This document shows positions 11,514 through 22,294 of a stretch of DNA of 64,000 nt, one piece after another. The position numbers and the translations under genes are program-made. Source of the DNA: Spirochaetota bacterium (GTDB taxonomy: Bacteria > Spirochaetota > UBA12135 > COTS27 > JAFLEE01); assembly GCA_017302015.1 (NCBI GenBank), contig JAFLEE010000004.1, positions 62,001-126,000 of the forward strand, read 5' to 3'. A model generated the notes under the pieces. It ran no database searches and was not told where the DNA came from. It saw only the letters and a program-made list of their open reading frames with translations. Each line of letters starts with the position of its first letter. Within the stretch, counting starts at the first letter, position 1.

Positions 11514-13727
11514 CTAGAGCGTGAAGGTGAGCTCGCAGCGGGTACCCGCGCCGCTGTGGATCTCGAAGGTCCCCCCGATCTGCTTGACCAGCATGTCCAC
11601 CAGGCGGTGCCCGAAGCCCTTGCGGCGCTCTCCGCCGTCGTCCGCCGGGAGCCCGACCCCGTCATCCTCCACCCGCAGGTGGACGCGCTCGCCGTCGAGG
11701 GAGACCGCCAGGCGCAAACTCCCCGAATCCCGCCCGATGAAGGCGTACTTCATGGCGTTGGTGATGAGTTCGTTGACGATGATCCCGGCGGGCACCAGGT
11801 TCTTCGATTGGATCGTGAAATCGGCGATCTCCCCCGTGACCGCCACGCGGTCGCGGTTGGGGAAAAGGGAGGTGACCGTTTCGAGGAGGCCGGAGAAATA
11901 CGCCCGGCTCGAGACCGAGGAATGGCCCTCCGAGAGAAGCAAGCTCTCGTAGAGCACCCGCATGCTGCGCACCCGGGCGATGGCGTCCTGGAGGGAGGAG
12001 AGGGCTTCGGGGTTGCGGCTGGTGCGCGCCTGGAGCACGAGGAAGCTTTCGATGGAGGCGATATTGTTCTTGATCCGATGGTGGACCTCCTGGAGGAGCA
12101 GGGTCTTCTCGCGCACCGCCGCCTCGAGGGCTTCCTCGGCGCGCCGGCTGCGGGTGACGTCCATGGTGAAGCCCGCCAGGAACCGCGGTTTCCCCGGCAG
12201 GTCGATGGGGAATTTGAGGGTGGTGTAGGAGCGGTCGGCGAAGGCCTCGTCCACCGAGATCAGGTTCCCTTCGCGGATCACCCGCAGGTCGTCGGCCACC
12301 ATCGATTTGGAGAGTTCCCCGGGGAAGAGTTCCTCCATGGATTTCCCGAGGATCTCGGCGAGGGGCCGGCCCAGGAGGCCCTCGTAATTCCGGCTCAGGC
12401 GGATCGGCCGGGCGTTCTCGTCCTTGAAGAAGACGTAGATGGGGCTATGCTCGAGGAATTGGGAAAAGATGGCTTCCGTCTCGCGCAGGGCGTCGCTGGT
12501 GCGCAATCGCAGGAGCGCCCCGCCGACCTGGAAGGAGATCGTCTCGACGGCGTGGCGGATGCCGGGGGGGAAGGCGTCGAAGCGGCGCGAGGCGAGGTAG
12601 AGGGCCGCGATGAGTTTGCCCTGGCTCATGACCGGGATGACGGCGAGGGCCCGCAGGCCTTCGCGCGCGCGCACCTCGTCGTCCTCCGTCAGGAGGTTCC
12701 CGTAATTGCCGTACCAGGGCCGCCCGGAAAGCACGAGGCGCGCCGTGGGGGCGTGGGCGTCGAAATGGGAGACCCGCGCGGCGAACGCCGGGGAGAGGCC
12801 CCGGTGCACGGCCATCGAGATCGATTTCGATTCGGCGTCGGCGAGGTAGATCCCGCAGGCGTCCACGGCCTCCAGTTGGACCACCGCGCGCAGGACGGCC
12901 TCGAGGCCGAGCTTCAAGTCGGCGCAGGAGTTGAGTTCTACGGCGAGGTCGTGGCTGACCTGTAGGAGGTGCTCGATCTGGCGGCTGGCGGTGATGTCCG
13001 ACATCACGCCACGGAAGCCCGAAAGAGAGCGGCCCTCTTCCACCCTCTGGAGGGCGATACGCAGCCATTTGACCGTACCGTCGGCGGCGGTGAGGAAGAA
13101 CTCCCCCGCGCTCTCCCCCGCTTCGAGAGCCCGCGCCCATTGGGAGGCCCATGCCGCGGCGCACCCGGGATCGAGGAGCTCCGCGAGATCATGGCCGAGA
13201 TGGTCTTCGGGCCGCAGCCCCGCGATGCGCGAGAGGGCGGGGGAGAGGTAGGTGAGTTTCCCCGCGGGGTCGAGGGAGAAGACGACATCGTGGAGCGTCT
13301 CGACGAGGGCGCGGTAGCGGGCGCTGCTCTCGGACTCCTTCCGCCGCGACTCGTGGAGGCGGAAGGCCATCTTGATCGATGCGATGAACACGGTCTCGCC
13401 CGAGTTCTTCACGATGTAGCCGTAGGAGGTGATGCCCTCGGTCTTGGCCACGATCTCGCGGGCGGTATGGGAGGAGACGAAGATGAGGGGAAGCTCCCGC
13501 TCGGCGAGGATGCGTTCGGCGGCGCGGGTACCGTCCATGCCCGGCCCCAGGTTGATGTCCATGAGCACGAGGTCGATCTCGGCGCGGCGGCGGACGGTTT
13601 CGAGGGCCTCTTCGCCGGAGGTGGAGGCGAGCACGGCGAAGCCGTAGGCCTCGAGGGTGAGGGCCTGCGTCTGGGCGAGGGCCGGTTCGTCCTCCACCAG
13701 GAGGATCAGTTTTTTTCCGTCGACCAT
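11514..13727 (-). CDS. Receiver-PAS-GAF-PAS sensor histidine kinase (HisKA_2/HWE type)
   Basis: A 737-residue soluble signalling protein. The receiver comes first (1-120), with phospho-acceptor Asp57 in VLMDINLG and a switch Ser in FVSSHT. Next are a PAS domain (about 130-245), a GAF domain (about 265-410) and a second PAS (about 420-535). The transmitter follows, with His near 548 in EVHHRIKNN (HisKA_2), then an ATPase domain with the N-box ELITNAMKYAF and DDGVGLP. No membrane span is seen, so the input is cytoplasmic or comes by phosphotransfer to the receiver. It lies 16 nt downstream of the heparinase-like lyase on the same strand. An output regulator is not visible. Confidence 0.9.
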   Translation of the reverse strand: MVDGKKLILLVEDEPALAQTQALTLEAYGFAVLASTSGEEALETVRRRAEIDLVLMDINLGPGMDGTRAAERILAERELPLIFVSSHTAREIVAKTEGITSYGYIVKNSGETVFIASIKMAFRLHESRRKESESSARYRALVETLHDVVFSLDPAGKLTYLSPALSRIAGLRPEDHLGHDLAELLDPGCAAAWASQWARALEAGESAGEFFLTAADGTVKWLRIALQRVEEGRSLSGFRGVMSDITASRQIEHLLQVSHDLAVELNSCADLKLGLEAVLRAVVQLEAVDACGIYLADAESKSISMAVHRGLSPAFAARVSHFDAHAPTARLVLSGRPWYGNYGNLLTEDDEVRAREGLRALAVIPVMSQGKLIAALYLASRRFDAFPPGIRHAVETISFQVGGALLRLRTSDALRETEAIFSQFLEHSPIYVFFKDENARPIRLSRNYEGLLGRPLAEILGKSMEELFPGELSKSMVADDLRVIREGNLISVDEAFADRSYTTLKFPIDLPGKPRFLAGFTMDVTRSRRAEEALEAAVREKTLLLQEVHHRIKNNIASIESFLVLQARTSRNPEALSSLQDAIARVRSMRVLYESLLLSEGHSSVSSRAYFSGLLETVTSLFPNRDRVAVTGEIADFTIQSKNLVPAGIIVNELITNAMKYAFIGRDSGSLRLAVSLDGERVHLRVEDDGVGLPADDGGERRKGFGHRLVDMLVKQIGGTFEIHSGAGTRCELTFTL

Positions 13728-13743
13728 GGCGTGCCCCCGTTCC

Positions 13744-16700
13744 CTACGGCCGCAGAAAGGCCAATTCCACCACGCTATTCCAAGCGTTCACGCTATTGCC
13801 GAGGCCGGTGAAGCGGACGAAGCGGGCGGCGGCGGGCTTCCCCAAGGGAAAGATCTCGGCGCCCTGGGCCGCGCCCCGGCTTCGGGCGGCGAGGACCTTC
13901 TCCCAGGCCTTGCCGTCCAGGGAGACCGCGATCTCGAAAGAGGTGCTGCGTTCGCCGCCCTTGAAGAAGATGGCCACGACGCGGTCGAGCCGTTCCATCG
14001 CGGCGAACTCGCAGGTCAGGGTTTGGCCCGCGCCTTCGGCGGACCAGCGGGTGTTCAGATCACCGTCTACCGCCCCGGAGGCGAGGTTCTCGTCGCTGGA
14101 ACTCGCGACGGCCCTGACGACGGGGATGCGGCCCTCCTTCGGGAACTCCATGGGGTCGACGGGCTTGCCGGCGAACCGCACCAGGGTTTCCAGGAGGCGC
14201 GCGCCGTTTCTCGCGGTGATGCGCGCGGTGCCCGGGACCGCGGTCGCTTGGGCCAGCGAGATCGCGGTGGCGGGATGCTTCGCCCGCGCCGTCACCACGG
14301 GGGGGATGCCCCCTTCCCATTGGACCCGATATTCGAACTTGAGCGGCGAAAACCCGGGGAGTTCCTTGCCATCCACTTGGAGTCCGGCCAAATCGAGGTC
14401 TCGCCGGTCCACCAGGGCCCAGGCATCGATATTTTGATCCAGGCCGGGGGGGAGGGGACCGGGGGTTTCGCCCTCGGCGAGCGGGGTGCAGAGCACGGTG
14501 AGGGTGATCCGCCGAGACGGGGCCGGGTTGAGCGCCAATTTCCGCACGCCGGAGTTCTGGCTTTGCTTCAGCTGCGGCGACTCGGGGAAGGGCCGCGCGT
14601 CGCGGACGGAAAAGACGGCGTCTTTCTCGAGCGCTTGGAGGTGGAAACGCCGGCCCGCGGAAGAGAGCGTCGCCTCGCGGCCGTCCGCGGAGAGCGCGAT
14701 CGCCGCGCGGGTGTGGAGGAACCACCACACGGGAACGGGCTCGGACAATTCGACCTCATCCCTCAGGAGGATGCGCTTGCGCCCATCGATGAGCCGCGCC
14801 CCCCGCTTCGCCCTGTCGACGGCGGGCCAGACGCGGGAGAGGTCGGCGACCACGAAGGCCTCATCGGGGGAGGTTTCGAGGCGGGTGATGGAGGCTTTGG
14901 CCCCGGGATCCTGGTTTCCGCCGTCGTGGCGGGCGGGGTCGATCGAGAGGGTATTGTGGCCCTCGGTCTTGAGCCGGTAGTATTTCCATCGGTCGGCGCC
15001 GAAGACGCCGGGGGCGTTGTAATTCTCCCCCTCGATGTCGATGGCCCATCGCTCGCCGAGGGCCTCGAGGATCACGCTGCCCAGGTCGAGGTGGCCATGG
15101 GGGGCCCGATTATCCCCGGCCTTGAGGCCGACGAAGGCGGCGAGGGGGTCGGCCCAGGATCCCCGCAGCGTCGCGACCTCGACGCCGCGGAAATGGCGGT
15201 CGAGGGGGAGCGGGCGGCCATCGGCCTTCATCGGCTCGTAGAAAAGAAGCTCGTCCGCGGTGGCGGATGCGTACGTGAGGGCGTAATCCTGGTAGAGCGC
15301 TTGCCCCGTCTTGGCGGCGAGCCAGAAGAGTTCGGGGAGGGAGGGGGGCTTTTCCCCGCTGTCCGAATAGTTGAAACTGCGGCGTGACGGGGAGACGAGG
15401 AAGGTCGGGAAGGCCCCCGTCTTCCAGAAGCCGGGAAAGGCGCCGCCCGAGAGCAGGCCGAAATCGCTCCCGCAGGCGGATTCCAAGGATGCGGCATAAT
15501 CGATGGTGTACTTCACCGTGCCCCACCAATAGCCCGTGCCCTCGAACCAGGCCCCGTCGGGCTCGAACTGGGGGAGCATCCACTGCACATTCGAGAAGGC
15601 GGCGGGGAGGATGCGGGCGGCGGCCGCGGGATGGCTCGGGGCCACGGCGAGGGCGGCCACGGAGAGGCCCCCGTTGCAGATGACGTTCCAATTATTGTTC
15701 GCCCGGGCCCAAAAGGCCTTCCCCTCCTCGAGGGCCTTGATCCCCGGGTCGAGGCCCAAGCGGACGATCGATTCGGCGGCGAGCGTTCGGTCGGCTGCGG
15801 AGAGGCCATCGTAGCACCAGTCATAGCCGATGGCCACCGCCAGCGCCATCTCCGCGGTATCGAGGAAATGCCGCGGGTTCCAATCGGGGAAGGCGCAGAC
15901 GGCCCGAAGTTCCGCGGCCGCGCGGTCGACGTAGCGCGCCTCCCCGGTGATTCGCCAGGCGAGGCCCAGGGCGATCATCCGCCGCTCGACCTTCTTGCTG
16001 GTCTCCAGAAGACGGAGTCCATCGGGGATCTCGTAACGGGCCGCCGGTTCGGCGAGGAGGCGATCGGCCCCCTGGCGGGTTTTATCCCACCAACCCGCCG
16101 CGACCCGGTCGGTCTTCAGCAGCTCGCGGATTCGCGCGAGCCGGGACGGGGTGAGCATGAGGCGGGGGTGGACATCCTTCACGGAAGCGAGGAATTGCCG
16201 GGCCGTGGGCGCGGGGACCGGCGGAAGGAAGGCCGCGGGGCCCGCGGTTTTCGCCGGTTCGGGGGGGAGCCCCAGGTCATCCATTTGCCAACCACCGATC
16301 CAAGCTTCCCCCCTATTCCCCGTGGAGGAATAGAGCCACGCGAGGCACCAAGCGGCGTTGCTGGGGGCCAATTCCTCGAAGGCTTGGGTCCGGAATCCAT
16401 CGGGGTTGCCGGAAAGCCCCTTCACGCGCTCCGGGGCCAGGAAGCCCCGTTTCGCATCGTACCAATTGAAGAAAAGGGCGAGACCGCCGCCCTTGACCGA
16501 GACGGATTGGCGGTAGCGGTGCCCCGGGAGGACGGCGACCCAGCGCCCCATCCCCACGCCCTCCTTGGGGTCCTCATCTTTTAGGTGGACGACGGGGCGG
16601 CCGTCCAAGATGCCCAGGGTGAGAGCCGTGGTGCGGCCGTTCGGGGCGGGCCGAGCTTCCCAGCCCGAGGGGATCGGGCCGCGCTCCGCCGGGATAAAGG

Positions 16701-16773
16701 CCGAAGGACCTAGCGCTTGGGCCGAGATCGCGGCGACGAACAGGAAGGGAAAAGCGACGACTTTCAGGCCCAT
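13744..16773 (-). CDS. Exported heparinase II/III-like polysaccharide lyase with C-terminal F5/8-type domain
   Basis: A 1009-residue protein with a signal peptide (about 1-20). It has an N-terminal beta-sandwich (about 25-155), an (alpha/alpha) toroid (about 180-480; RLMLTPSRLARI), and a beta-sheet lyase domain with HGHLDLGS (about 555-562) and EGHNTLSID. A discoidin (F5/8 C)-like domain forms the C-terminus (about 870-1009; LNTRWSAEGAGQTL, ending NSVNAWNSVVELAFL). The fold suggests beta-elimination of uronic-acid polysaccharides in the periplasm or outside. The substrate is not known; alginate, heparinoids or pectin-like chains are options. The final domain closely resembles that of the 30.5 kb lyase. 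Confidence 0.87.
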   Translation of the reverse strand: MGLKVVAFPFLFVAAISAQALGPSAFIPAERGPIPSGWEARPAPNGRTTALTLGILDGRPVVHLKDEDPKEGVGMGRWVAVLPGHRYRQSVSVKGGGLALFFNWYDAKRGFLAPERVKGLSGNPDGFRTQAFEELAPSNAAWCLAWLYSSTGNRGEAWIGGWQMDDLGLPPEPAKTAGPAAFLPPVPAPTARQFLASVKDVHPRLMLTPSRLARIRELLKTDRVAAGWWDKTRQGADRLLAEPAARYEIPDGLRLLETSKKVERRMIALGLAWRITGEARYVDRAAAELRAVCAFPDWNPRHFLDTAEMALAVAIGYDWCYDGLSAADRTLAAESIVRLGLDPGIKALEEGKAFWARANNNWNVICNGGLSVAALAVAPSHPAAAARILPAAFSNVQWMLPQFEPDGAWFEGTGYWWGTVKYTIDYAASLESACGSDFGLLSGGAFPGFWKTGAFPTFLVSPSRRSFNYSDSGEKPPSLPELFWLAAKTGQALYQDYALTYASATADELLFYEPMKADGRPLPLDRHFRGVEVATLRGSWADPLAAFVGLKAGDNRAPHGHLDLGSVILEALGERWAIDIEGENYNAPGVFGADRWKYYRLKTEGHNTLSIDPARHDGGNQDPGAKASITRLETSPDEAFVVADLSRVWPAVDRAKRGARLIDGRKRILLRDEVELSEPVPVWWFLHTRAAIALSADGREATLSSAGRRFHLQALEKDAVFSVRDARPFPESPQLKQSQNSGVRKLALNPAPSRRITLTVLCTPLAEGETPGPLPPGLDQNIDAWALVDRRDLDLAGLQVDGKELPGFSPLKFEYRVQWEGGIPPVVTARAKHPATAISLAQATAVPGTARITARNGARLLETLVRFAGKPVDPMEFPKEGRIPVVRAVASSSDENLASGAVDGDLNTRWSAEGAGQTLTCEFAAMERLDRVVAIFFKGGERSTSFEIAVSLDGKAWEKVLAARSRGAAQGAEIFPLGKPAAARFVRFTGLGNSVNAWNSVVELAFLRP

Positions 16774-16878
16774 GGCGCCCCCCGGGGCGATTGTCGCATC
16801 CCTGCGGGGCGGTCAGAGGGCTTGCTTTCCGGCTTGGAGGTGCAAAATAAACGGCGGGGGGGATCCTAAATTTTTTTC

Positions 16879-16907
16879 TTGACGAACGCGTCCTGGAAAT
16901 GCATTAT
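16879..16907 (+). promoter_or_regulatory. Promoter of the orphan structured RNA
   Basis: TTGACG (16879-16884), a 17-nt spacer and CATTAT (16902-16907), in an AT-rich patch behind a seven-T run. It points rightward, away from the heparinase-like gene, and would start transcription near 16914. Confidence 0.6.
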
Positions 16908-16937
16908 TAGGTTACACAAAAAGGAGGTGATCAACAT

Positions 16938-16982
16938 ATGAACCAACGCTTATGGATGACCGGTGAGGTGGCTGAGCGATAA
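16938..16982 (+). CDS. 14-residue mini-ORF in the structured RNA
   Basis: ATG at 16938, 5 nt after the perfect Shine-Dalgarno block AAGGAGGTGATC, encodes MNQRLWMTGEVAER and ends in TAA. The spacing from GGAGG to ATG is about 10 nt. The last codons lie in the left arm of the downstream hairpin. TGEVAER resembles the start of an excisionase/MerR-type helix, but the frame stops at once, so this may be a leader peptide or a relic of such a gene. Confidence 0.45.
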   Translation: MNQRLWMTGEVAER

Positions 16983-17056
16983 GCCAGACCCTCGTTGCCA
17001 GAAGGCCCTCCCTCGAGAACGACGGGAAGCTTATGGCAGTCCCATCAGACCACCGC

Positions 17057-17123
17057 CTCCAACGGCGCGCGGGGATGGTCTCCCGCCCGGCGCGAAAGCG
17101 CTGACGCCGTTGGAGTTTTTTTT
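17057..17123 (+). terminator. Branched intrinsic terminator
   Basis: The 11-bp perfect outer stem CTCCAACGGCG (17057-17067) with CGCCGTTGGAG (17105-17115) is followed by eight T (17116-17123). The 37-nt loop can itself fold, including GCGC-GAAA-GCGC (17090-17101), a GNRA-capped hairpin. It is oriented for rightward transcription and stops 7 nt before the 3' end of the convergent GH71/99-like gene. Confidence 0.8.
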
Positions 17124-17130
17124 GTACTCC

Positions 17131-19533
17131 CTAGTCGAGCCTTTTTAGGCGGATCGCCCCGATCACCACATCCGCCCCCGGATCCACTTCGACCCGGAGA
17201 TCGTTTCCGTTGCAGCGTCCGATGAAGAGGCCATCGCGTATCTCGAAGCGGTGGGTCGTCCAGGCGCCGCTCCCTTCGAGGCGGAAGGTTTCGGCCACTT
17301 TCCAGGCTCCCGGGGACGTTCCATGGGCGTCGATCGAGAAGTCCCGGGAATCGTAGACCACTTTGATCCCGGCGGGCGTGGGGGAATAGAGGTCGAGCTC
17401 CAATGACACCGGCGGCGCCTCCTTCCCGCAAAAGGCTTCGTGCTCCAGTTTGAGGTAGAATTTCCGCATTTTTTCCGGGGCCTCCACCGGCTTCAGGAGC
17501 CATCCCGGGCGTCCCGCGCGCACGCATGGCTCGTTGGCGATTTCCGAACCCTTGGCTTGGGCGACCAGACCCCGGAACGCCGGGGGGTCCGAAAAGACGG
17601 CGGACAGTTCCCTCAAGTTCGAGGGGAGTTGGTTCGAATAGAGCGGTCGGTAGGCGACGGGAAAGCCCGGGCGCGCCGGGGGAAGGGGCTGTGGCGCGAG
17701 GCTTCCATCCAATAATTTCTTCGCCTGGCCGGCGAGCCAGAGATAATGGTCGTTGGGAAGCCCCTGGTAGGTGAGGAACCGGGTGGTCTCGTCGGGGCAA
17801 ACCGGCGGATCGTTGTCGACCTTATAGATGGCCGTGCCTTCGTCGATCTCGTCGAACATGGCCACGTAGAGCATGCTCGCCCCGCACTCGCGGGCCACCG
17901 CGGCCTGGCGCCAGAAGAATCGGCCCTGCAGGCGGGGAATCTGGTCGAGGGGGCGCGTTCCATCGTTCATATTCGCCCAGCTGAACCCCGGGAAGATGAC
18001 GGGCATATAATCCTTCTTCCTTTCCGCGCACCACGCCAGGTCGGGGATCTGCACGTGGCGGATGAAGAGTTCCGCCTGCTCGAGGCCGCCATAGCGGCCC
18101 ACGGTCCAGGGCGAGATGATGTCCGCCCGCGCGCAGAGCGCCCGCACGCGGTCGTGGTTGGGCTTCGTGCCCGAGCGCCACCCGTTCTCGGTGCCGAGTT
18201 TGATGGCGAACCCGCCGTAGACGGGATCGCGTTGGGCGAGATCCATCATTTTTTCGAAGGCATCAAGGCAGTATTCGCGGTCGGCGAAGAGGCCCCAGAG
18301 GGCGAGGACGGGCTTGCCCTTGTGGCGCTGGTAGGCCTTGTCCCTCGGGTCTTTTCCAAGCCCCTCCCGGTCGACGAGGCGCTTGAAATCGTCCAAGAGG
18401 GCCTGGGTATCCCGGGCCCCGGAGAGGTCGTACATCAGGGCCCAGGTGCGGCCATGGGCGTTGGCCCCCGAGCGCACGTGCTCGAGCACCGTATTGTTCT
18501 TGAAGGTCCGCCCCGGGTTCTTGATGCCCGTGGCGAAGCGCTGGAGGAAGACCCCGTCGATGCCGTGGGTCTCCATCCACCGGAAATGCCGGTCGACGGT
18601 CTTGGGGTTCATGGCGGTGAACACGTGGGCGACGCTGCCGTCGGCGCGGCGGAAGGGCGTGGGGATTTTTTCGTCGGCGTCGGCCTCCGAGAGGTCGGGC
18701 CAATAGTCGACGTGGCAATCCCCCGGTTCGAAGGTCCCGCGCTCCGCCCAATGCACCCAACCGAGGCCGCTGCCATCCCCCGGGACGCCCTGCCAGCCCT
18801 GGTAGCCGCACATCACCTTGCCCGTCAGGGTGGAAGGATCGGAGCCGGTGGCGACGGGGCCGTCGAAGCGTTTCGCCTTCGCCCAGACCTCGTCGAGGGA
18901 GAGGGTAAAGGCTTCGGTCTTGGGGGCCGGGGGGGCGTTCGAAAGCGCTACTTGGTTCGCCGCCTGGGAGGCCGCATCCGCGGCGGTGAGGCGGAGCTTC
19001 GCGAGGGTCAGCCCCGCCTTGCTCTCGAAGCGAAAATCGCCGCCATTGCAGCGGCCGGCGAAATAGGCGTCGGGGATCTTGAAGCGGGCGGTCTTCCAGG
19101 CGCCGCTCCCGGTGAGGGTGAAGGCGCGCTTGGTTTTCCAAACCCCCAGGCGATCGCCGCTCCCCACATTCCGGTCGCTGGAATCGTACTTGAGGGCGAC
19201 GACGCCTTGGCCCTCGTCGAAATAGTCCACTTCGAAACGGACCAGGGGAGCCTTGCCCGCCTTCAGGGCGCCCTCTTTGACGAGGAAATACATCATCTTC
19301 ATCTCGCGCCAAGCCTTGCGCCCGGCGCGCTCGACAAAGGCGTTCTGGGATTCGCCGTTCTTCGCCTGGTGCTCCACTCCTTGGGGGAGGGCGGGGTCGC
19401 GGTCGAGGAGGCAGGAGGCCTGGGCTCCGGTGAACGCGTCAGCTTCCTTGGACGGGAGGTCCGCTCCCTGGAGGAATGCTGCGAGCAGGGCCAGGATTGG
19501 GAGGCCGACGCGCGCGAGGCGATTTCGTTCCAC
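17131..19533 (-). CDS. Exported GH71/GH99-like glycoside hydrolase with duplicated flanking domain
   Basis: An 800-residue protein with a signal peptide (about 1-23). The central domain (about 235-630) reads VMCGYQGWQGVPGDGSGLGW, then THGIDGVFLQRF, and later FPGFSWANMNDG and YVAMFDEIDEGTAIYK. These resemble GH71/GH99-like proteins, often annotated as xylosidase/arabinosidase or endo-mannanase. Similar beta domains flank it: an N-terminal one (about 60-185, WKTARFKIPDAYFAGRCNGGD) and a C-terminal one (about 670-800, WTTHRFEIRDGLFIGRCNGND), probably carbohydrate-binding. It lies 31 nt downstream of the GntR-type regulator on the same strand. Substrate unknown. Confidence 0.78.
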   Translation of the reverse strand: MERNRLARVGLPILALLAAFLQGADLPSKEADAFTGAQASCLLDRDPALPQGVEHQAKNGESQNAFVERAGRKAWREMKMMYFLVKEGALKAGKAPLVRFEVDYFDEGQGVVALKYDSSDRNVGSGDRLGVWKTKRAFTLTGSGAWKTARFKIPDAYFAGRCNGGDFRFESKAGLTLAKLRLTAADAASQAANQVALSNAPPAPKTEAFTLSLDEVWAKAKRFDGPVATGSDPSTLTGKVMCGYQGWQGVPGDGSGLGWVHWAERGTFEPGDCHVDYWPDLSEADADEKIPTPFRRADGSVAHVFTAMNPKTVDRHFRWMETHGIDGVFLQRFATGIKNPGRTFKNNTVLEHVRSGANAHGRTWALMYDLSGARDTQALLDDFKRLVDREGLGKDPRDKAYQRHKGKPVLALWGLFADREYCLDAFEKMMDLAQRDPVYGGFAIKLGTENGWRSGTKPNHDRVRALCARADIISPWTVGRYGGLEQAELFIRHVQIPDLAWCAERKKDYMPVIFPGFSWANMNDGTRPLDQIPRLQGRFFWRQAAVARECGASMLYVAMFDEIDEGTAIYKVDNDPPVCPDETTRFLTYQGLPNDHYLWLAGQAKKLLDGSLAPQPLPPARPGFPVAYRPLYSNQLPSNLRELSAVFSDPPAFRGLVAQAKGSEIANEPCVRAGRPGWLLKPVEAPEKMRKFYLKLEHEAFCGKEAPPVSLELDLYSPTPAGIKVVYDSRDFSIDAHGTSPGAWKVAETFRLEGSGAWTTHRFEIRDGLFIGRCNGNDLRVEVDPGADVVIGAIRLKRLD

Positions 19534-19563
19534 GGGAGCACTCCTGATCTTGGTCGGGGGGAT

Positions 19564-20631
19564 TTAATAACTCGGGCGTTCCACGAGGGTGGGGGGAAGG
19601 AGGATCTCCTCGTCGGGGGCGGCGGGATTCCTCAAGAATCCTGCGGCGAGGCGTACGGCGCGGGACCCGATCTCGGCCAAGGGTTGATCGAGGGCGGCCA
19701 GACCGAAGGCGCGGGAAACCTCCAGGTCGTCGAAGGTGATGAGCCCCAGTCGGGCGGCCGGGAGGCTGCCCATGCCGTACGCCCTCAGGAACGCCATGAA
19801 ATGGAGGGCGACGAAATCGGCCAGGATGAAGAGGCCTTGGGGTTCGTTGGATTGGAGGGCCTTCAGGAACGCTTTGGCGTTCATCCGGGGACCGAGCACC
19901 AGCCCCCGGGGAGCGGGGCGTCCGGCGGCTTTGAGACCCGCCCGGAATCCCTCGACGCGGGCGTCGCTGGCGGAGGTCTCCCGTCCGCCGACCATCGCCC
20001 ACCAGTAGCGCCGGCCATCGGCCCGGGCGAGTTCGGCGGCGGCCCGCCTTCCGCCAGCCAGGTTATCGCAAGCGACATGGCTGGCGGGGACCCCGGGCAC
20101 GCCATGGAGGCGCCGGTCGACGGTGATGAGGCGGACCTTCGCCCGCCGCGTGCGCTCGAAGAGCCAGGCATCGACCGCGCGCGAGGCGGGGCCGTGATCG
20201 CCCATGGGGGCATAGAGGAAGGTGCGGGCACCGCTTTGGATGAGTTCATCGACATCGGCGCGGATTCGTTCGGGGTTCTCGTCGTTCTCGCGGAGCACCA
20301 ATTCGAGGCCCTCGGCGCTCGCCGCTTCCCGCATGCCGGCGACGATGCGGCCGAAGATGCCCCCCACCGCGGCGGAGGCCCCGGCGACGAGGAATGGGAG
20401 GCGGCGGTCCCACCCCGCCTCGCGCTTGAGCACGCTGCGGCGGCCCCGGGCGTGGGAGAGGAGGCCTTCGGCGGCGAGTTCCCGAAGCGCGCGGCGCACC
20501 GTCTTGGCCGTGGTCTTGAAGGCCCCCGCGTAATGGGCTTCGGTGGGCATCGTCTGGTCGGCGCCCAGCCCGCGACGGGCGAGATCGGCGAGGATTTTTT
20601 GCTTGAGGAGGGGGAACTTGGCGTGGGACAT
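19564..20631 (-). CDS. GntR-type DNA-binding domain fused to LacI-type sensor (AraR-like regulator)
   Basis: A 355-residue regulator. It has a GntR winged helix-turn-helix (about 1-68; MPTEAHYAGAFKTTAKTVRRAL) and a LacI/periplasmic-binding-like ligand domain (about 78-355; LIQSGARTFLYAPMG, ARLGLITFDDLEVSRAFG). This chimeric order is that of AraR-like sugar repressors. It is transcribed divergently from the solute-binding protein gene and precedes the GH71/99-like gene, so it probably controls both (inference). The ligand is unknown. It has no coupling to the pathway genes further away. Confidence 0.9.
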   Translation of the reverse strand: MSHAKFPLLKQKILADLARRGLGADQTMPTEAHYAGAFKTTAKTVRRALRELAAEGLLSHARGRRSVLKREAGWDRRLPFLVAGASAAVGGIFGRIVAGMREAASAEGLELVLRENDENPERIRADVDELIQSGARTFLYAPMGDHGPASRAVDAWLFERTRRAKVRLITVDRRLHGVPGVPASHVACDNLAGGRRAAAELARADGRRYWWAMVGGRETSASDARVEGFRAGLKAAGRPAPRGLVLGPRMNAKAFLKALQSNEPQGLFILADFVALHFMAFLRAYGMGSLPAARLGLITFDDLEVSRAFGLAALDQPLAEIGSRAVRLAAGFLRNPAAPDEEILLPPTLVERPSY

Positions 20632-20655
20632 GCGGGATCGACGCGTGATCGGGAA

Positions 20656-20677
20656 ATACCTTAGCTACGGTAAGTAT
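20656..20677. promoter_or_regulatory. Imperfect palindrome upstream of the GntR/LacI-type gene (candidate operator)
   Basis: ATACCTTA (20656-20663) and TAAGTAT (20671-20677) flank GCTACGG. The pairing has one missing base. It lies 25 nt upstream of the regulator start in the divergent region, a usual place for an AraR-like operator. No second clear copy was found. Confidence 0.35.
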
Positions 20678-20733
20678 GGCGAGCTCCCCCATTTTTGTCA
20701 AGGAAGGCGGCTCCCGCCGAGGCCGCGGTTGGT

Positions 20734-20762
20734 TTGAAATTTACCGGGCCGAGTTATATAGT
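20734..20762 (+). promoter_or_regulatory. Promoter of the first solute-binding protein gene
   Basis: TTGAAA (20734-20739), a 17-nt spacer and TATAGT (20757-20762). This is a good sigma70-type match, about 70 nt upstream of the ATG. Confidence 0.65.
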
Positions 20763-20830
20763 TGCCGGCGGGTTTCCGAGAGGGCCCGAATCGCGAAGTT
20801 TCCCCCATTTTCTTCCCCAGGACGCCCGCC

Positions 20831-22294
20831 ATGAAGAATTTTTTCCTCGCCCTGCTCGCGCTGCTCATCATGTTCAGCCAGTACATCCAATACCGCGCCT
20901 CGGGCGCCATCGGGAGCCAGGGCCCCGTGGTCTATTGGGTCGCCGATGGGTCCACCTACCGCCGGGGGCAGTACCAGCGCTTCCTCGAATGGATGAAGGA
21001 AACCCATCAGCCTCCCATGGATTTCCGCATCGATCCGGCCAATAATAGCCTCCAGAAAGTCATCCTCCAGGGCGTGACCGGCACGGCGGGCGACATCATC
21101 CAGTGCTTCGCGACCCAGATCCGCTACCTCGATGAGATCGGCATCCTGGAAGACCTCACCCCGTGGATCAAGGATCTGGGCGTCTCCACCAACGACCTTT
21201 TCGCAGGATACCAGTGGATGATCAACGAGGGCCGGGTCGTCGCCCTCCCCGCCAATTCGGGCACTTCGGGCCCCTATTGCGTCAACGCCAACGCCTTCAC
21301 CAAACTCGGCCTTCCCTTCCCCCCCGACCGGTGGAGTTTCGAGGAGTTCGAGCGCTTGGGCAAGCAGTACGTCGAGAAGGCCAACGCCGACAAGCCGCGC
21401 CTGCGGCGATTTTTCGCCATGGCGGTGAACACCACGGTCATGCGCAACTCGGTCGGCGTGCCCATGTTCAACGAGACCATGACGGCCCCCGCCTTCAACG
21501 ATCCCCGCTACGCCGCGATCCTGAAGCTCCAGCGAAAATGGATCTACGAAGACCGCATCCTCCCCTCCCAGGCCGACATGGATAGTTTCACGCAGGAGGG
21601 CGACAATTACGGCGGCACGAGCGCGCTCCTCCACCGCGGCTTCTTCGCCATGATGAACATCGGCCGGTGGCATTTCTGCACCACCCGCTTCATGTCGACC
21701 GATGTGAACTACCGCTGCGTGGCCCATCCCGACGGCGGGTTCCTCAACAGCGTCGCCGGGGGGAAGTTCAACGCCGTCTATAAGGGAAGCAAACGCAAGG
21801 CCCAGGCAAAGATCTTCATGAAATGGTTGGCCAGCGACGATTACAACCTGAAGATCATCGCCGACGCCGACGGCGAGCCGCCGAATATGGCCTTCCTCAA
21901 GACCGAAGCCTACCTCAAGCCCGCCAAGTACCCCAATGAGTGGGATTTCAACCGCGACCTCTCCCGCCTCATCCTCACCACCGCCGTGCCCGAGGAAACG
22001 ACCCCCTACGCCATCCCCGGCATCTACGGCCCGCGCGTGGGCAAGGTCAGCCAGGGCTTCATGAGCGGCCTCATCACCGCCGAAGAGATGCTCCTCCAGC
22101 AGGAGACGATCATCCGCGACGCCATCAACGAGCACCTGGGACGCCGGCCCGAAGTGAAGGTCCGCTACCTCGAGGCCGTCAAGCGCCAGCAAGAGATCGA
22201 TGCGATGAAGGCTTCGGGGAAGTCGCTGCCCCTGGCCCTCGTCGACAATCCCTTCCTGCGGGTGTATTACCAGAAGACCGGCAAGGCGAAGTAG
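20831..22294 (+). CDS. Family-1 extracellular sugar-binding protein, orphan paralogue 1
   Basis: A 487-residue ABC-type solute-binding protein. The N-terminus MKNFFLALLALLIMFSQYIQ looks like an uncleaved or weakly cleaved signal anchor with no lipobox Cys. The body has family-1 (maltose-type) features: VVYWVADGS, the repeated gate segments GDIIQCFATQ and FEEFERLGKQY, and a late basic C-terminal tail. The tail (IDAMKASGKSLPLALVDNPF) is nearly identical to that of the paralogue at 29.0 kb, so it is a subfamily hallmark. No permease or ATPase gene is adjacent. An in-frame ATG further upstream (20762) lies at the promoter -10, so 20831 is chosen. Confidence 0.85.
   Translation: MKNFFLALLALLIMFSQYIQYRASGAIGSQGPVVYWVADGSTYRRGQYQRFLEWMKETHQPPMDFRIDPANNSLQKVILQGVTGTAGDIIQCFATQIRYLDEIGILEDLTPWIKDLGVSTNDLFAGYQWMINEGRVVALPANSGTSGPYCVNANAFTKLGLPFPPDRWSFEEFERLGKQYVEKANADKPRLRRFFAMAVNTTVMRNSVGVPMFNETMTAPAFNDPRYAAILKLQRKWIYEDRILPSQADMDSFTQEGDNYGGTSALLHRGFFAMMNIGRWHFCTTRFMSTDVNYRCVAHPDGGFLNSVAGGKFNAVYKGSKRKAQAKIFMKWLASDDYNLKIIADADGEPPNMAFLKTEAYLKPAKYPNEWDFNRDLSRLILTTAVPEETTPYAIPGIYGPRVGKVSQGFMSGLITAEEMLLQQETIIRDAINEHLGRRPEVKVRYLEAVKRQQEIDAMKASGKSLPLALVDNPFLRVYYQKTGKAK

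Follow-up and report, generated by a model that had tools for sequence, protein, structure and literature searches.

A predicted transcription unit between two minus-strand genes

The window, the whole 64,000-nucleotide stretch of Spirochaetota DNA that was analysed, contained a gap between two minus-strand genes (13744-16773 and 17131-19533), whose products are a heparinase II/III-like protein and a GH99-like protein. The following features were located in it.

16879-16907, plus strand: sigma-70-type promoter TTGACG-17-CATTAT, by consensus scan (9/12), -35 box 41 nt 5' of the Shine-Dalgarno (SD) sequence
16920-16932, plus strand: extended SD sequence AAAGGAGGTGATC, complementary to the 16S 3' end and kept in all aligned members
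16926-16961, plus strand: predicted hairpin P0, in which the ORF pairs with the start region and the 3' half of the SD (GGT/ACC, ATC/GAT, CATA/TATG)
16938-16979, with TAA at 16980-16982, plus strand: 14-codon mini-ORF encoding MNQRLWMTGEVAER, frame and stop kept in homologues
16965-16970, plus strand: GAGGTG, a second SD-like element, 9 nt 5' of the stop codon
16967-17054, plus strand: helix P1, GGTGGCTGA (16967-16975) with TCAGACCACC (17045-17054)
16976-17037, plus strand: helix P2, an inverted repeat, GCGATAAGC (16976-16984, holding the stop) with GCTTATGGC (17029-17037)
17037-17044, plus strand: CAGTCCCA, by alignment the conserved unpaired CAATCC segment of the family
17057-17123, plus strand: 3' domain, an 11-bp terminator stem (inverted repeat, 17057-17067/17105-17115), two arms and then T8
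17077-17080, plus strand: GGTC in the loop of the first 3' arm, suggestive as a candidate pseudoknot partner of GACC in the ORF (16958-16961)

The original prediction had described here a promoter-like element, a 14-codon ORF, a long hairpin whose outer stem overlaps the ORF stop, and an 11-bp terminator stem with eight T, in an RNA that precedes no gene, both flanking genes being on the opposite strand. All of these were found, with the stop lying in P2 of the P1/P2 hairpin and the T run at 17116-17123. The inner GCGAAAGC hairpin, predicted as GNRA-capped, was also real in the window but differed in homologues. One promoter with a 9/12 consensus was found against 0.2 expected in shuffles. The whole window RNA was predicted to fold at -84.8 kcal/mol (z -3.7), with z-scores of -3.4 for the P1/P2 hairpin (16967-17054) and -5.2 for the terminator domain; P0 was predicted at -7.8 kcal/mol (z -1.5). 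The reading of the window RNA as a standalone transcription unit with predicted promoter and terminator was supported.

The surrounding region (11514-22294) formed a polysaccharide-use neighbourhood with heparinase-like and GH99-like genes, a GntR/LacI-type regulator, an extracellular solute-binding protein and a receiver-PAS-GAF histidine kinase. The motif GCTTATGG occurred twice in the window RNA, at ~16947-16956 in the ORF and at 17029-17036 in the 3' strand of P2, and GATAAGC could pair with either copy. GGTGAGGTGGCTGAGC was considered as the mark of a tRNA-like part and rejected, since neither ARAGORN nor Rfam detected a tRNA, a tmRNA or a tRNA-like part in the window.

Homologues in several phyla and relation to Ms_IGR-5

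At the gathering threshold of Rfam 15 the locus matched no family, and a lax threshold gave chance matches only. A DNA search of the 40 closest genomes found nothing similar to the window RNA, and one of 393 Spirochaetota genomes detected five homologues, each as two collinear pieces; weaker DNA matches (L013-L017, L024 and L028) were left out as members. A covariance model, R1, was built from six sequences and recognised 11 members in the 393 genomes, five of them new and including a divergent Leptospirales branch; building such a model had been proposed as a check with the original prediction, and it did yield further members. A pattern (SD, gap, GYGAGGTGRCTSNG) matched at least 119 stretches in genomes of named species and none in IMG/VR. 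The matches listed included Streptomyces, Mycobacterium, Nocardioides, Acidobacteria, Deltaproteobacteria, Binatia, Sumerlaeota and Leptospirales, and nearly all stretches tested were recognised by R1. An Akkermansiaceae match (L112) was rejected because it had no ORF and scored 12.6 bits.

In larger scans, whose counts, like that for Spirochaetota, are rough lower bounds as fast filters were used, matches were obtained in 38 of 247 genomes of Acidobacteriota (at least one, L200, false), 5 of 247 of the phylum of a Deltaproteobacterium (G394; one of them, L213, false), 16 of 40 of the phylum common to two Sumerlaeota (G396 and G397) and, with the Rfam RF02471 model, 48 of 247 of Actinomycetota (23 above the cut-off). 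None of 14 control genomes gave a match above the cut-off, and there was one copy per genome throughout. By these searches the family was found in at least five phyla: Spirochaetota, Acidobacteriota, Sumerlaeota, 'Deltaproteobacteria'/Binatia and Actinomycetota.

The actinobacterial copies matched Rfam RF02471 (Ms_IGR-5) at 59-179 bits. The window copy lay below the 45-bit gathering threshold of that family, with no match over the locus up to E 10, and a search of the organism's own genome with RF02471 gave only weak places elsewhere. The two were joined by a second covariance model, R2, whose 12 sequences came exclusively from Acidobacteria, Deltaproteobacteria, Binatia and Sumerlaeota, with no spirochaete or actinobacterium among them. 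R2 matched 16920-17054 of the window (52 bits, E 5.9e-12) as well as the copies of Streptomyces and Mycobacterium (including M. gordonae and M. colombiense; E 4e-7 to 2e-9), and its best match apart from true members in 141 kb was the 16S tail (E 0.014). Ms_IGR-5 and the window RNA have the same order of parts, namely the SD, a mini-ORF with the ending EV[AT]xx, a P1 that is closed by CAGnCACC, a P2 that covers the stop and a terminator domain, whereas the window RNA differs in its 3' domain, in a bulge in P1 and in its genomic place. Judged by these matches, the window RNA is a distant branch of a family known to Rfam from actinobacteria only.

Ms_IGR-5 is listed in Rfam with function unknown, and our search of the literature on it found no function; a search for names of the RNA in M. 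tuberculosis and S. coelicolor gave nothing firm. Its transcript was detected in M. smegmatis (PMC10454040), S. lividans (PMC8079986) and S. avermitilis (PMC8780764). Significant ribosome footprints were reported by Ribo-seq for the MS_IGR-5 homologues of M. abscessus and M. smegmatis, with the authors' caution that structured RNAs may be protected without translation (PMC4974804).

An extended SD sequence and a mini-ORF with a fixed stop

At 16920-16932, a run of 13 nt was exactly complementary to the 16S rRNA 3' end of the same genome (GATCACCTCCTTT), one base more than the 12 of the original prediction. Exact matches to this SD sequence occurred only twice in the 5.4-Mb genome, in the 16S gene and at the window site. 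Across the family (motif AAAGGAGG(A)TGRTCC) the complementarity extended over 13-14 nt and was among the best-conserved parts. Of 142 distinct members, 139 had a -35 box (TTG[ACT]) at 34-56 nt 5' of the SD, mostly at a distance of 42-44 nt; control windows gave 16.2. Given this fixed distance, the RNA should start a few bases 5' of the SD in every phylum.

The search pattern imposed no frame, start or stop, and yet 129 of the 130 pattern matches listed had a same-frame ORF that began immediately 3' of the SD and ended exactly 17 nt after GYGAGG; for the same matches, the other two frames gave ORFs in 10 of 260 tests. The members recovered with the covariance models followed the same rule. The mini-ORFs of the 152 distinct members had 11-21 codons, started with ATG (99), TTG (28) or GTG (25), and stopped with TAG in 110. 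TAG mostly followed a codon with C or T in last position, and its preference may reflect P2 pairing or dependence on release factor 1. GAGGTG lay exactly 9 nt before the stop in 159 of 159 members collected. P1 pairing may account for part of this invariance, as may the weight given to GAGGTG by the search models. In an Acidobacteriota member (L208) the mini-ORF carried two tandem GAGGTG modules (MSYHSSSEVSYRTREVAAT), as though by a duplication of the ORF end.

The encoded peptide was variable except for an invariant Glu-Val. Its N-terminal part differed in length and sequence, the residue after Glu-Val was Ala, Thr, Pro, Ser or Val, changing with the P1 base partner, and the last three residues (AET, TAG, TEA, TLL, PVT, VTS) varied with the base pairing. 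Since the codon after GAG GTG follows its partner in P1, the constraint appears to act on the RNA and not on the peptide. From this pattern of change, with a variable peptide but a fixed frame and stop, reaching the fixed stop by translation seems more important than the peptide made. As the family RNA always has its SD and mini-ORF but stands before no fixed gene, translation is probably part of how it works.

Covariation in P1 and P2

A 47-member alignment from five groups was used, which was fitted to the R2 structure so that its counts lean towards that structure. In it, 92.4% of P1/P2 cells were paired (82.1% in shuffles), 49 cells were changed on both sides (14.8 in shuffles), and the covariation was 0.259 (0.087 in shuffles), a value reached in 0 of 500 shuffles. 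Sliding the partner by one column destroyed this covariation, and a structure-free alignment of fewer sequences (A6) gave the same picture. In P1, 96.5% of cells were paired and two pairs were changed on both sides. In P2, which covers the codon before the stop, all four scored pairs were changed on both sides across phyla, the sequence changing freely with the pairing kept. The absence of compensatory changes had been named as what would refute the original prediction; the outcome favours the structure. In two deltaproteobacterial sequences (L211 and L212) the inner P1 was wholly changed (GGTGGTGTC/GACACCACC and GGTGGTGAC/GTCACCACC), and GAGGTG, the frame and the stop position were kept.

The other pairings were less uniform. 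Compensatory variants of P0 were present in Actinomycetota and were weak and non-significant outside Actinomycetota. The pseudoknot of GACC in the ORF with GGTC in the 3' loop is suggestive: Leptospirales members carry GACT/AGTC instead, and the shuffle test for GACC/GGTC was not significant. A simple terminator scan of homologues (a 7-bp perfect arm followed by TTTT) was passed by only 25 of 135, so it supports a U-run terminator for some of the members.

Genomic neighbours

Next to the RNA, mycobacteria carry a gene for a class IV aminotransferase and Streptomyces one for PNPOx; Acidobacteria group 1 has a flavoprotein gene there, relatives of Pyrinomonadaceae one for an amidohydrolase, Deltaproteobacteria one for Cu-oxidase_4, and Leptospirales one for either a glutamine amidotransferase or an amino acid kinase. 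Orientations, which are approximate because the ORF finder is crude in GC-rich genomes, were mixed, and a few members had a same-strand gene downstream. Because the neighbours differ by lineage, this arrangement argues against a cis-acting leader of one gene, and a search for the target by synteny was given up for the same reason.

In mycobacteria (L103) the RNA lay 58 nt after the class IV aminotransferase gene, pabC-like by our reading, and in a Leptospirales group (L048) 37-38 nt after the glutamine amidotransferase gene, pabA/trpG-like. Both upstream genes may thus be p-aminobenzoate genes, perhaps by coincidence.

Proposed mode of action and alternatives

It is well supported that the locus encodes a structured small RNA, presumably transcribed as a unit of its own, which is a homologue of Ms_IGR-5 and belongs to a family with an ORF of 11-21 codons selected for translation. 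In the interpretation originally offered, a standalone structured RNA with no fixed target gene and a mini-ORF stop in the first stem has held, and each of the roles suggested with it (trans-acting, dual-function or 30S-binding) is compatible with these results. The terms "orphan" and resembling no RNA class have not, as homologues exist in several phyla and their actinobacterial branch is a named Rfam family. What is new is a standalone structured RNA whose probably translated ORF is kept from phylum to phylum; previously, the actinobacterial branch only was known.

The best explanation, to which we give an even chance, is that this Ms_IGR-5-homologous RNA acts as a translation-gated RNA, by a mechanism that we infer as follows. 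The free AAAGGAGG end would serve as a toehold catching the 16S 3' tail, and the pairing would extend into GGTGATC and open the P0 hairpin. The ribosome would then read the mini-ORF to the stop codon buried in P2. At termination GAGGTG would be six nt 5' of the P-site codon, a spacing typical of an SD, and it is therefore proposed that the terminating ribosome is held there, keeping P1 and P2 open. This would free the conserved C-rich strand CAATCC...CAGnCACC, which might pair with G-rich (SD-like) targets or alter the stability of the RNA, and the output would report 30S supply or termination and recycling. A broader version is offered tentatively: a multi-phylum class of trans-acting regulatory RNAs, switched by a terminating ribosome at an internal SD-like element and reporting ribosome supply or recycling, of which Ms_IGR-5 would be the sole known branch.

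It is also conceivable, although we consider it unlikely, that an abundant, stable RNA simply ties up 30S subunits or ribosomes by its near-perfect SD and short ORF, tuning the free supply. Only the SD toehold with P0 opening and the holding at GAGGTG would be needed. The strong conservation of the long SD, the second anti-SD-complementary element at SD spacing before the stop, and the failure of neighbour comparison to find a target gene all fit such a role. It would, however, have no need of a covarying P1/P2 or of a stop fixed inside a helix, and with one copy per genome it would require a putative ribosome-like abundance. The P1/P2 covariation around the fixed stop thus favours gating over the mere tying up of ribosomes.

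Should the product instead be the peptide, a Ser/Thr-rich microprotein of 11-21 residues ending E-V-x-x-x, the structure would only regulate its translation, and the holding at GAGGTG, the opening of P1/P2 and the release of the strand would all be dispensable. The almost always kept frame and the invariant Glu-Val agree with this; the variable N-terminal part and the three last residues that follow base pairing do not, and GAGGTG as RNA accounts equally well for Glu-Val, which makes a functional peptide improbable. Still harder to sustain, and very improbable in our judgement, is a leader peptide attenuator with terminator readthrough into a downstream gene, which would share the order of ORF, stem and terminator and could apply to the few members with a same-strand gene downstream. 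In the window and in many homologues the downstream gene is in the opposite orientation (here 17131-19533, minus strand), and the neighbours differ in each lineage. That promoter, SD and hairpins came together between the genes by chance has a negligible probability: the empty search of the closest 40 genomes might have spoken for it, but multi-phylum homologues with covariation and a conserved frame refute it.

Comparison with known systems

A small RNA of unknown function, recorded as actinobacterial, is thus present in distant phyla, and it always comes with a nearly perfect ribosome binding site and with a mini-ORF whose stop position is fixed. This opens its function to direct tests in M. 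smegmatis or Streptomyces, and the question is raised whether a common bacterial RNA senses translation itself.

tmRNA (SsrA) is also a structured RNA with a short translated ORF, but the window RNA differs in starting translation from an SD. In trp/his-type leader peptides a short ORF has its stop region overlapping a stem, with a terminator behind; the window RNA has in common with them this overlap and the terminator, but neither a run of a single amino acid nor a fixed downstream gene. SgrS and RNAIII are dual-function small RNAs, in which one transcript is both a structured RNA and a short mRNA. Rfam gave no sequence relation between them and the window RNA, and unlike in SgrS and RNAIII, the peptide of this family varies while the frame and the position of the stop are kept.
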